A stretch of DNA of 64,000 nucleotides from an uncultured Spirochaetota bacterium (lineage in GTDB: Bacteria > Spirochaetota > Spirochaetia > JAFGXN01), in assembly GCA_944388995.1 (NCBI GenBank), contig CALXKN010000006.1, positions 1 through 64,000 of the forward strand, written 5' to 3'. Position numbers and translations under genes: made by a program. Under the pieces are notes generated by a model. It was not told the origin of the DNA and did no database searches. It worked only from the letters and a program-made list of their open reading frames with translations. Shown piece after piece: positions 48,257-64,000 of the stretch (within the stretch, counting starts at the first letter, position 1; every line of letters begins with the position of its first letter).

Positions 48257-48326
48257 AAAAAACCGGCAGCGCCTCCTCTTCGTTAAAACAGGGGACCACG
48301 AGAGAAAGGATCGGTTTAGGGTTCAT
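48243..48326 (-). pseudogene. GT2 glycosyltransferase fragment (first 28 codons)
   Basis: ATG 48326 has a good Shine-Dalgarno (GGGAGGA) and overlaps the end of gtrA by 11 bases, as in intact gtrA-gtrB operons. The 28 codons MNPKPILSLVVPCFNEEEAL... PVFYETAE are a perfect start of a GT2/DPM1-type bactoprenol glycosyltransferase. After that, similarity stops and the sequence runs into the membrane-protein remnant in another frame. Some 300 codons are missing, so the gene is destroyed. Confidence 0.75.
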
Positions 48327-48735
48327 GTCTTTCATCCTCCCGAAAGGCAAAATAACGCTGTCCGAAGTAGTTCAGAGCAGTGAAGACGATCATGCCCAGC
48401 GCCAGCGCCGCGTTGCCGCGAAACGAGGCAGAAAACCCGCTCAAAAGCCATTCCGTCAGCGGTTTCGCCGCTCCGTAAGCGGCAAAATAACAAACCGCAA
48501 TGACAGCGATAAAACGCACGGCAGGACGCCAGCCGCGGCTTGTATTTCCGAATGTAAACCGTTTGTTCAGCACATAGGCGAGAAGACTTCCGACGATGTA
48601 GTTTGCCGACGACGAAAACCAATACGGACAGTGCGCCGCATTGTAAAGAAGAAACATCAGCGTCGCCCCGACAAGCGTATTGAGCGCGCCGACGGCAAGA
48701 AATTTAATCAGTTTCCGATCTGCCCAAGAAAACAC
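48316..48735 (-). CDS. gtrA: GtrA-family membrane protein
   Basis: A 139-residue membrane protein with four TM helices (about 12-35, 40-60, 78-98, 110-130), typical of GtrA-like proteins thought to flip undecaprenyl-phosphate-linked sugars. The start region KLIKFLAVGALNTLVGATLM is the usual N-terminus, and YRVGS-like SANYIVGSLLAYVLNKRFTF is present. GTG 48735 has no Shine-Dalgarno; TATAAT ends 6 bases upstream. Its glycosyltransferase partner, which should follow, is deleted (48243-48326), so the protein may be an orphan. Expression may vary through the G tract in its promoter. Confidence 0.85.
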   Translation of the reverse strand: MFSWADRKLIKFLAVGALNTLVGATLMFLLYNAAHCPYWFSSSANYIVGSLLAYVLNKRFTFGNTSRGWRPAVRFIAVIAVCYFAAYGAAKPLTEWLLSGFSASFRGNAALALGMIVFTALNYFGQRYFAFREDERHEP

Positions 48736-48754: not shown

Positions 48755-48770
48755 GGGGGGGAGGGGGGGG
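48755..48770. repeat. Interrupted poly-G tract in the gtrA promoter
   Basis: Plus strand: seven G, one A, eight G. On the gtrA strand this is a C tract occupying the -35 region and part of the spacer, eight bases from the -10 box. Length changes here would move upstream sequence relative to the -10. Confidence 0.85.
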
Positions 48771-56884: not shown

Positions 56885-56895
56885 CTGAATTTATT

Positions 56896-57043
56896 TGGGC
56901 GCGCGCCCCTGCGGGGCGCCGGGCTTTCCGCTGCAATTCGCGGCTTCCCTCCGCCTTTACAAAGGCAAAGCTTCCGCTTTGCCCTGCGCCTTTTTTCCGT
57001 CGGCCGCTCATTTCCGCTCCAATCCCTCGCGCTTTCGGTTTGT
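56896..57043 (-). repeat. Structured intergenic repeat, copy 3
   Basis: Core only, on the minus strand, without the ~57-bp direct repeats. It carries GGGATTGGAGCGGAAATGAG, GGCCGACGG, the hairpin GGCAAAGC-GGAA-GCTTTGCC, GCGAATTGCAGCGGAAAGCC, and the terminal hairpin GCGCCCC/GGGGCGC, ending CGCGCCCAAATAAA. The 3' end is 11 bp from the dxr stop codon and faces it. Its 5' end is next to the terminator of the following gene. Confidence 0.85.
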
Positions 57044-57111: not shown

Positions 57112-59559
57112 TTACATTCTCTTCGGAGAGAGGTAAATCCGTTTTCCGACAGGAATTTCATTCACGGTAATCGTACACTCAACCTTCGGACTTGCCTTTC
57201 CGCTCGGCACAATCTCAAGTGTGTAATCACCGGACGTCACATCATAAATGTTAAATTCTATCGAAAAGAGACCGTCCGCTTTTCGACTTGTCGTAGGATA
57301 CACACTGTCGACAGCACTGCCGCCTTTTGTTACTGTCACATCAAAATCGGTAAAAATACCGAAAATCCGCTCAATCGGAACAGAAACCGAGACATATGAA
57401 CTTTCACTCTCCCGGAACAGGGCAATTTGCGCCGTTTCATTTGACGGGTACAGACAAAACTCGTCGGCAGGAACCGTCGCGCTCACCGAAAATTTCTCTC
57501 CCTCAACCGTTGCCTCGACCGTCAGTTCATCGCCGGGACCGCAGACGTAATTGTATTCGTCGCCGTAAAGATAATCAAACGTGACGGTTTGTTTTTCGTC
57601 GTCAACGGAGCCATATTCATCTGTTGGAGCATTGTTTACAGATAAGGCCTTCACATCGAGATAAACGGACTCTCGGTTGTGTGTATATGGAACGGTCAGA
57701 ACGTAATGGTTATCTTCAACGGTAACCGCCGCTTCCCCGAAGGCAAATTCCAGCGGCGCCTGCGTTTCTTCCCCCTTTACGGTAAAAGAAGTTTCGCTCT
57801 TCACCGCGCCGTCGACAACAAACTGCAGGCGGTACTCTCCGGGAGCCAAAGGATATTCTTCTCCGGAATCCAGATCACCAAAATAGAAGTATCTCAACTC
57901 GCCAAAATATGTTGAAAAAATCTGTTTTTCTCCGGCTTTGTTCACTACAGAAAAATTTTCCGTATCCAGTGAAACAGTTCCCGGATCGGCAATTGCTAGC
58001 GAAGATGAGTCAGAATCTAAAATTTTTAAATCCAATTCCGCCGGAACTTCTTTCCAAATCAAAGAAACCTCCACCTCCTCCTCCGGCATGACGAATGCGT
58101 ATCGCGTATAGTGCAGAACGAAATCGTATTCATCATAATAATATGAATCAACGGTCCGGGTGACATTTACCGTCTGTCCGCTCTTTGTTTTTTTAATCTG
58201 AATGCCGTCGAGCCCCCACGCTTTTCCTTCTAAAGGCGGTTTAGTACACATTAGACGAAGCATGTCATCTGAGAAAAGGATTTCATCACCCGGAAGTGCG
58301 CTTTCCAGATCATCGGCTACACCGTTGCCGTCGGCATCGACATCGGGATCATCAGCAACTATAATCTTGTAATAATCGCTCATGCGAGCGCCGTTGAGGT
58401 TCCATTTGACGGCAACCGGTGTTTTCCATACAGCGGTAAAAGTTATGTTCGGCGCGGATGCCGGTACGGTGAACGTTTCACCGGATTCGTAAACGGTTCC
58501 GTTCCATTCCCAACCGAAAAGTCGAATCTCTTCATTGTGTGAAACAGTATCCCAGTCAGACGGAAGAGGCAGCTCATTACCCACCCATAAACTCAACGGC
58601 TGCGAATAGTCGGGTGACAAATAGGAATTCCACTCCGCGCCGGGGTTTACCTCCGTATTCAGATCGAATTTCACCGTCGACTGCTGTCTTTCTTTGAGAA
58701 CGGCGTAAAAAACGTAACTGTAGCTGTCGGCCGGCAATTCCGAGCTCGAAATTGTTTTGCCCGGAAGATACTCTGCCTCCGCCGCGCTTTCCGTCAGCGC
58801 CCACCCCAGAAAGTCGGCGGTAATATCAGAGTATTCTCTTTCCTTCACATCGGGCATCAGGATTGATTGAGTATGTTCATTAATCGTATACGACCAGCTC
58901 TCCGCATCAACATCCCAACCGCTATTCCCATCGATTTCAAACTGAACGGTTTTTGTCTTCGGTTTGGTAGGAAGATAAGCGGCGTAGAAAGTCAGCGGCG
59001 TACCGTCAACTTTGATCGCTGTTCCCGGTCCGAGAATGTCGCCGCTTTCATCGGCCGTCTTCCGCCAGCCGGCAAAGTATTTTCCGCTCTCTTTAACAGC
59101 AAAAAGGTCATCGCCGTCTGCCAGAACGATATAACCGTCTTGGTTCAGCGCGTCAACCGTGACCGTTTTGCCGTTTTCCACCATGGGATTGTAGGTCACC
59201 GTCATGCGGCCGCGCTCCCAGATTGCATAATAAGTATAAGGACTCTTGGAATAAACAAGTTCCTTTTCTCCCGGTTGAGAAAGTTGATCAGAAGACGTAG
59301 CATTTTTGTTCGTCGACCAGCCGACAAACGCATAGTTTTCCCTTGTAAACGGATTCTCGGGAAAGGTAAACTCTTCGGCAAAACGGACGGTGTAGTCAAA
59401 TGCACTGCCGCTGCCGCCGTTGGGTTCAAAACGGTAAACGATTCCTTGAACGCTTCCATCCGTGTCAGTCGGATTTTCCGGAACTACAGGCGGCGGCGGA
59501 GGACAGGCAACTGCCGTCAACAACGTAAAAATTAAAGTGAATAAACGGTATTTTTCCAT
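57112..59559 (-). CDS. Large surface lipoprotein with InlB-B-type repeats
   Basis: An 815-residue predicted lipoprotein. The signal MEKYRLFTLIFTLLTAVAC is followed by a Pro-rich stretch. Residues about 40-400 hold several InlB B / Listeria-Bacteroides repeats, each ending in the tell-tale FVGWSTNKN or FAGWR... then YYAIW, FYAAY or FTAVW. A calcium-loop-like DVDADGNGVADD lies near residue 415. The C-terminal half is beta-sandwich-like and unassigned. Such repeats are typical of cell-surface adhesin-like proteins. ATG 59559 has AAGGAG upstream. The promoter abuts a very long interrupted G tract, so expression may be phase-variable. It has its own terminator. Confidence 0.8.
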   Translation of the reverse strand: MEKYRLFTLIFTLLTAVACPPPPPVVPENPTDTDGSVQGIVYRFEPNGGSGSAFDYTVRFAEEFTFPENPFTRENYAFVGWSTNKNATSSDQLSQPGEKELVYSKSPYTYYAIWERGRMTVTYNPMVENGKTVTVDALNQDGYIVLADGDDLFAVKESGKYFAGWRKTADESGDILGPGTAIKVDGTPLTFYAAYLPTKPKTKTVQFEIDGNSGWDVDAESWSYTINEHTQSILMPDVKEREYSDITADFLGWALTESAAEAEYLPGKTISSSELPADSYSYVFYAVLKERQQSTVKFDLNTEVNPGAEWNSYLSPDYSQPLSLWVGNELPLPSDWDTVSHNEEIRLFGWEWNGTVYESGETFTVPASAPNITFTAVWKTPVAVKWNLNGARMSDYYKIIVADDPDVDADGNGVADDLESALPGDEILFSDDMLRLMCTKPPLEGKAWGLDGIQIKKTKSGQTVNVTRTVDSYYYDEYDFVLHYTRYAFVMPEEEVEVSLIWKEVPAELDLKILDSDSSSLAIADPGTVSLDTENFSVVNKAGEKQIFSTYFGELRYFYFGDLDSGEEYPLAPGEYRLQFVVDGAVKSETSFTVKGEETQAPLEFAFGEAAVTVEDNHYVLTVPYTHNRESVYLDVKALSVNNAPTDEYGSVDDEKQTVTFDYLYGDEYNYVCGPGDELTVEATVEGEKFSVSATVPADEFCLYPSNETAQIALFRESESSYVSVSVPIERIFGIFTDFDVTVTKGGSAVDSVYPTTSRKADGLFSIEFNIYDVTSGDYTLEIVPSGKASPKVECTITVNEIPVGKRIYLSPKRM

Positions 59560-59577
59560 ATTATAACTCCTTAACGG

Positions 59578-59586
59578 AGTCTACCA
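59578..59586 (-). promoter_or_regulatory. Extended -10 promoter of the InlB-repeat lipoprotein gene
   Basis: Minus strand: TGG-TAGACT, an extended -10 (59578-59586; the hexamer matches four of six). It is separated by one base from the G tract, which therefore fills the whole spacer and -35 region. A 5-bp inverted repeat (ACTCC/GGAGT, 59566-59580) places part of the Shine-Dalgarno in a small hairpin. Confidence 0.45.
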
Positions 59587-59587
59587 C

Positions 59588-59630
59588 GGGGGGGGGGGGG
59601 GGGGGGGGAGGGGGGGGGGGGGGGGGGGGG
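59588..59630. repeat. Very long interrupted poly-G tract (G21-A-G21)
   Basis: Plus strand: 21 G, one A, 21 G, beginning 29 bases upstream of the lipoprotein ATG. It has the same G-run/A/G-run design as the tract in the gtrA promoter but is much longer. Exact length may be unreliable because such tracts are hard to sequence and assemble. Confidence 0.75.
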
Positions 59631-59706
59631 TCGAGAGGTTTTTGAAAAAAAGAGAAAATTTCAGAGAAACACCGGCGCACCGATCCGCCAAAGACCGTTC
59701 CCAAAC

Positions 59707-59990
59707 GGGAACAAAGGTTGCAGGAAAAGGCATAAAATATTGCGTTGAAGGCGGCGGATTCTCAAAAGCCCTGAAATTCTGCCGAAGTCAGAATGAGGCG
59801 TTAAAAGACGGCGGACCCGCAAACGGACGTCAGAGCCGCCGAAGGCGCGGGGGATTGGAGCGGAAATGAGCGGCCGACGGAAAGGCGGCGCGCGGCAAAG
59901 CGGGCAGCTTTGCCGCGGTTGAAGGTGCGGGAGGCCGCGAATTGCAGCGGAAAGCCCGGCGCCCCGCCTGCGGGGCGCGCGCCCTGAAAA
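59707..59990 (+). repeat. Structured intergenic repeat, copy 2
   Basis: It starts ACGGGAACAAAGGTTGCAGG and has two degenerate ~57-bp direct repeats (59721-59830), with a further partial unit (CGATCCGCCAAAGAC) near 59681. The core (59840-59990) carries GGGATTGGAGCGGAAATGAG, the hairpin GGCAAAGC/GCTTTGCC with a loop one base longer than in copies 1 and 3, and the terminal hairpin GCGCCCCGC/GCGGGGCGC. It ends GCGCCCTGAAAAAAA. Its 3' end faces the 3' end of carB, about 58 bp away. The whole interval 59560-60048 contains no credible gene. Confidence 0.85.
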
Positions 59991-60048
59991 AAATTCAGAG
60001 AGGAAAGCCCCGGCATTCTCCGATACACCGAAGAGGCCGGAAGGCGGC

Positions 60049-63411: not shown

Positions 63412-64000
63412 TTACGGAATGGACTCCGCCGGCGGCTGAAACCCTTCGAACGAGGCGCTCCAAACTCGGTCCGTTACATTCAAATGAAAAAGGGCGACAG
63501 GATCGCATGTCTGAGAGTCGTACCCTTCCCAGTCAACGGTAAATTCGACGTTTTCGCGGGCATAAAGATAGGCCGGAACGTAAAAGAAAATCAAGTAAAC
63601 GACGGCGGTTGTGGTGCCGGCAGACTGAGACATGACGTAAAGCGATTCGTCTCCGATGTAATAATCGATTCCGGATTTGTATCGAGCAACGTCCCGCTTC
63701 TCCCAAAACATGGAGCTATCCGTGATTCCGTATTTGCCGCAAAAACCGTAGTTTGCTATGTAGCCCTCGGGACGCTCCGCACCGTCAATCAGATAACCGC
63801 TTGCCGTTGTTCCGAATGCATCGTACTGAAACTCCAACCCGGTGACGTGGGTAAAATCATCTTGCCACAATCCTCCGGAAGAGTCGGTAATATCAAAACG
63901 CAATCGAATTTGGACTTTATGCGAAGAATTCGGAATTTCTTCACCAGGAACTTCTTCACCAGGAACTTCTTCACCAGGAATTTCTTCACCAGGAACTTCT
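63412..64000 (-). CDS. Partial protein with 15-bp tandem repeats (C-terminal part)
   Basis: The last ~195 codons of a minus-strand gene whose start lies beyond the right edge. At the edge the frame runs through Glu-(Val/Ile)-Pro-Gly-Glu repeats, then an unassigned domain of about 165 residues (LRFDITDSSGGLWQDDFTHV ... EFTVDWEGYDSQTCDP ... SFEGFQPPAESIP) rich in aromatic and beta-type segments. The repeat linker and composition resemble surface lipoproteins, where such linkers follow the acylated Cys, but the N-terminus cannot be seen. I recognise no family. Confidence 0.7.
   Translation of the reverse strand, partial: EVPGEEIPGEEVPGEEVPGEEIPNSSHKVQIRLRFDITDSSGGLWQDDFTHVTGLEFQYDAFGTTASGYLIDGAERPEGYIANYGFCGKYGITDSSMFWEKRDVARYKSGIDYYIGDESLYVMSQSAGTTTAVVYLIFFYVPAYLYARENVEFTVDWEGYDSQTCDPVALFHLNVTDRVWSASFEGFQPPAESIP
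63932..64000. repeat. 15-bp tandem repeat (about 4.6 visible units)
   Basis: Unit GGAAYTTCTTCACCA starts at 63932, 63947, 63962, 63977 and 63992 and continues out of the window. Units differ only at one C/T position, which switches Val and Ile in the encoded EVPGE/EIPGE pentapeptide. The array is in frame, so unit gain or loss changes linker length without a frameshift. Confidence 0.9.

Follow-up and report, generated by a model that had tools for sequence, protein, structure and literature searches.

The question raised by this locus is whether a long homopolymeric tract directly upstream of the -10 region of a lipoprotein gene acts as a length-operated switch of its promoter, and how far the assembled length of that tract can be trusted. 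The stretch of DNA analyzed (64,000 nt, hereafter referred to as the window) carries on its plus strand 21 G's (59588–59608), a single A (59609), and another 21 G's (59610–59630); the base count thus confirms the G21-A-G21 tract reported in a preliminary description of this DNA. The longest other G run has 8 bases, and G9 matches number 26, compared to a mean of 0.29 and a maximum of 4 in shuffles of the window. A tract of the form G21-A-G21 is far beyond chance expectation in this window.

The tract and the gene behind it

The gene downstream of the tract (57112–59559, minus strand) encodes an 815-aa lipoprotein with the lipobox AVAC, and its N-terminus carries the lipoprotein signal MEKYRLFTLIFTLLTAVAC. 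Its earlier identification as an InlB-repeat lipoprotein holds, as the scores for the Listeria-Bacteroides repeat exceed the curated cut-offs of both PF09479 (List_Bact_rpt; 33.4 bits, cut-off 27) and TIGR02543 (21.6 bits, cut-off 20.95). An ortholog with 88% identity is present in G001 (contig C13, 22448–24871), a relative in the same genus and the sole other genome of the genus met in the analysis. Judged by dxr, the closest named relatives are Treponema MAGs, at approximately 50% identity. At the end of the window (63903–63999), a tandem repeat codes for EVPGE units within an open frame of the minus strand.

Read in the direction of the lipoprotein gene (minus strand), the sequence is C21-T-C21-GTGG-TAGACT, followed by 18 nt and the ATG at 59559; the ribosome-binding site AAGGAG (59567–59572) lies inside these 18 nt. 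The -10 hexamer TAGACT occupies 59578–59583 and is joined to the tract by GTGG (59584–59587), which includes the TGG of an extended -10. As previously noted, the tract ends one base before TGG-TAGACT (C21-G-TGG-TAGACT on the coding strand). The sense-strand tract is poly-C, not poly-G. At the assembled length, no -35/-10 pair of the window copy is separated by 15–20 bp.

The orthologous promoter and the proposed switch

The promoter of the G001 ortholog reads TTGACA-T-C13-GTGG-TATATT, with a pure run of 13 C's and a spacer of 18 bp. Its two hexamers match 11 of 12 consensus bases, and none of 2000 flank shuffles was as good. The homopolymer of G001 is placed between the -35 and -10 regions; therefore, the tract is the spacer of the promoter. 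The tract is conserved with another length: the relatives differ (C13 vs C21-T-C21, the window length being uncertain), while the promoter is kept, with an identical GTGG and a conserved position of the -10 (TATATT in G001, TAGACT in the window). Spacing close to 17 bp, as in an allele capable of being ON, is found in G001 (18 bp) and not at the assembled length of the window copy.

The comparison also locates the -35 region. According to the preliminary description, the tract fills both the -35 and the spacer; this stands for the spacer but is not supported for the -35, since TTGACA sits just upstream of the tract in G001. A -35 inside the tract was considered and is ruled out by the same comparison. 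Nor does the tract appear to replace the -35, as the window retains a degraded copy, TCGACC (59629–59634, minus strand), homologous to TTGACA. The window flank (59628–59649) and the -35 flank of G001 are identical at 16 of 22 positions, and at each of the six differing positions the plus strand of the window has changed to G. A match of this quality was equaled by 0.015% of shuffled flanks and at 3 of 127,956 places on both window strands. The apparent filling of the -35 region arises because of the great assembled length of the tract.

We consider it probable (approximately 0.78) that the tract serves as a slippery spacer in a sigma70-type promoter that drives a surface-type lipoprotein and confers phase variation operated by tract length. 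Slipped-strand mispairing would alter how many C's separate the -35 from the extended -10; the promoter would be active at a spacer of approximately 17–18 bp (12–13 C's) and weak or silent otherwise, and the window copy, with a spacer of approximately 45 bp at its assembled length, would be OFF. From this arrangement we infer slippage in living cells, an effect on transcription, and surface exposure of the protein, and the switch may serve immune escape, phage escape, or niche change. The phase-variable promoter proposed earlier for this gene is supported by the conserved tract of G001, with its well-spaced TTGACA and TATATT, and by many parallel cases (see below).

Spacer-length switching in spirochetes is documented, as far as we found, for a few outer-membrane genes of T. 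pallidum. The closer models are tp0126 (OmpW homolog) of T. pallidum, in which poly-G lies between the -35 and -10 and activity is best at 17 bp, and porA of Neisseria meningitidis, in which a homopolymer spacer governs transcription through spacing (PMC7864442). The promoter described here shares the homopolymer spacer with both. It differs from tp0126 in its sense-strand poly-C, in a lipoprotein instead of an OmpW product, in the C13 of G001, and in the interrupted 43-nt assembled form of the window; it differs from porA, whose tract is poly-G, in an unrelated bacterium and gene. The poly-G tracts of the tpr genes, to which the locus had been likened, are a more distant match. Like it, they come from a treponeme and belong to surface genes, and they show the length dependence of transcription that is proposed here (8 or fewer G's are permissive for tprE, tprG, and tprJ), but for tprL the authors excluded an altered -35/-10 distance (PMC7864442), whereas here the coding strand is poly-C, GTGG stands between the tract and the -10, and the C run of G001 determines its -35/-10 distance, which places the promoter outside the tpr type. 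The opc gene of N. meningitidis, which also encodes a surface protein, has poly-C at its promoter too; the opc tract covers the -35, whereas TTGACA of G001 lies outside the tract. The window copy has a degraded -35 and a tract of uncertain length. Among 17 further poly-G tracts of T. pallidum, 76% showed length variation (PMC7864442), and heterogeneity of poly-G and poly-C tracts has been reported, mostly in predicted promoter regions (PMC12223175).

Similar tracts in the genus and across the class

G001 contains 13 G/C tracts of at least 8 bases, nine of which immediately precede lipoprotein genes; the others are one upstream of a GtrA-like gene and three within genes. The nine lipoprotein genes include alpha-L-fucosidases (two with the Pfam domain that was scanned and one close paralog), one sulfatase, two genes with Big_2 domains, and the InlB-repeat gene. 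A -35/-10 pair 17–19 bp apart spans seven of nine promoter-type tracts that were scored (five at p < 0.05 by shuffling); a good pair was not found for the remaining two (C5 and C8). The sense strand of these tracts is G in seven cases and C in two. Few orthologs of the G001 tracts were found in the genome to which the window belongs (G000), and the rest are either missing or lost to breaks between contigs. The window itself has a C8-T-C7 tract (48755–48770, minus strand) upstream of a GtrA-like gene (48316–48735, minus strand), with a -35-like TTAAGT and a -10 TATAAT; its G001 ortholog has C13.

The three intragenic tracts of G001 are located at the start of a glycosyltransferase gene, just after the lipobox of a lipoprotein gene, and at the end of a gene for a GGDEF protein. 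A C13 run (locus L168, 3045–3057) near the start of the family 2 glycosyltransferase gene (MHQPPPPQVSV) likely confers phase variation by frame switching. The tract at the 3' end of the GGDEF (diguanylate cyclase) gene, just before an nadC-like gene (locus L173, 3013–3025), is conserved in G000 and there separates contig C5 from contig C17. Two tract promoters that lack a recognizable -35 (locus L171, 5938–5988, and locus L175, 3014–3060) share a motif, ATAACTTTTTG, on their upstream side; it possibly marks another promoter class.

The survey of the class covered 248 genomes, among them related genomes and paralogs, so that the sites counted are not independent. The poly-G pattern TTGACW-N0-8-G8-N0-10-TAnnnT was found at approximately 93 distinct sites in 47 of these genomes, compared to 8 matches of the reversed pattern, which was used as the control. 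The poly-G spacers peak at 15–17 bp, and 73 of the 93 sites have spacers of 15–18 bp, compared to 35% if lengths were uniform. Sites with matching short flanks have tracts of differing length in different species (13/16, 9/12, and 9/13; the orthology of the genes behind these flanks is unchecked). Poly-C counterparts are less common (26 sites vs 12 control matches), but the exact module of the window, C8+-G[AT][GT]G-TAnnnT, occurs at 12 sites in 6 of the 248 genomes (control, 1), mostly in this genus and one genus of another, distant family, and a lipoprotein orf lies behind 11 of the 12 sites. In the single-contig genome G171, there are 14 such promoters (11 poly-G and 3 poly-C), and 11 of the 14 genes behind them start like lipoproteins, with signal sequences judged by eye.

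The comparison suggests that numerous lipoprotein genes of the class are preceded by the same device, among them genes for glycan-degrading lipoproteins in this genus. In the open-access papers searched, we found no description of such promoters before lipoprotein sets in treponemes other than T. pallidum. As a tentative proposal, with the chances somewhat against it, spirochetes may broadly use a modular poly-G/poly-C spacer promoter as the standard switch for large lipoprotein sets, including glycan-degrading enzymes (fucosidases and sulfatase) in this genus; lipoprotein genes might move with these promoters or be gained and lost exactly at them, and the 43-base interrupted tract might be an extreme allele. 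Phase variation is directly testable in other species, and the module offers a simple motif by which phase-variable surface genes can be sought.

The assembled length and alternative readings

The assembly of G000 (1.93 Mb, 27 contigs) contains 24 G/C runs of nine or more, and all clusters of at least 12 G/C other than the window tract lie within approximately 110 nt of a contig end; therefore, such tracts break the assembly and make it unreliable at these places. Just past the G tract of contig C17 there are A-to-G changes, at a site where contig C5 and G001 agree, and the changes past the window tract, likewise to G, resemble them in type. Short-read assemblers commonly use 21 as their smallest k-mer length. 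Given the two equal halves of 21 and the poor assembly at such tracts, the length may be an artifact, and the earlier reading of the symmetric A as a slippage brake is speculative. Upstream homology to G001 stops 22 nt past the tract, at a rearrangement between the two genomes, and the window contig may therefore contain a false join. The window flank, when compared with the sequence beside the contig-end tracts of C23 and C14, gave weak, low-complexity matches only. We conclude that the tract itself is real, while its 43-base length and central A are unproven from the assembly alone. Short-read assemblies of these organisms should thus be read with caution at such promoters, where they break or carry wrong bases.

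Whether the assembler made the G21-A-G21 form is a matter of even odds. A shorter or variable tract, present in the genome, may have been stretched and bridged, and the flank beyond approximately 59650 may be another locus. The contig-end position of the other clusters, the errors at the C17 end, a window flank that departs from G001 by changes to G alone, and the agreement of the halves with the k-mer length all point in this direction. On the other hand, interrupted tracts also occur in well-assembled sequence (C8-T-C7 at 48755–48770; G4-A-G8 in G001), and the contig runs on normally into carB. This explanation concerns the length and the join and is compatible with the slippery spacer. That the entire tract is a sequencing artifact of two-color chemistry is highly improbable: such artifacts typically show up as long G runs at contig ends, but C13 lies at the same place in the independent assembly of G001, and the same design recurs in single-contig genomes.

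Two further readings accept the tract and deny it the proposed function. It may have decayed or been locked OFF, being over-long and interrupted, with switching lost. Its assembled length far exceeds the 8–17 of its relatives, and both TAGACT and TCGACC are weaker than the hexamers of G001; however, the length and the -35 are possibly errors, and the two 21-base halves would still be expected to slip, so that we regard a locked promoter as unlikely. A tract that works other than by spacing, for example, as an opc-like regulator site or a G-quadruplex barrier, is distinctly improbable, even though G runs can form quadruplexes. The equivalent G001 promoters occur in both strand orientations, and the spacers cluster at 15–18 bp; together, these two observations argue against a strand-specific quadruplex. 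In favor of such action, T. pallidum tprL was reported not to be driven by spacing (PMC7864442). The slippery spacer of a sigma70-type promoter remains our preferred reading.

The surroundings of the gene are rearranged in the genus. The window blocks uppS-cdsA-dxr, the lipoprotein gene, and carB occupy three separate places in G001. A dispersed repeat of approximately 150 bp (RepA) flanks the lipoprotein gene at its 3' end (56885–57038, minus strand) at a breakpoint relative to G001, and an inverted copy is located at 59839–59998 (plus strand). Both genomes of the genus carry dozens of RepA copies, which are found at rearrangement breakpoints; the breakpoints relative to G001 are at RepA and just outside the lipoprotein promoter. 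Two lipoprotein genes of approximately 450 codons in G000 (locus L232, 1509–2826, and locus L233, 1919–3353) are cleanly absent from G001, in which a G tract stands at the corresponding position; this suggests that lipoprotein genes may be gained or lost at tract promoters.
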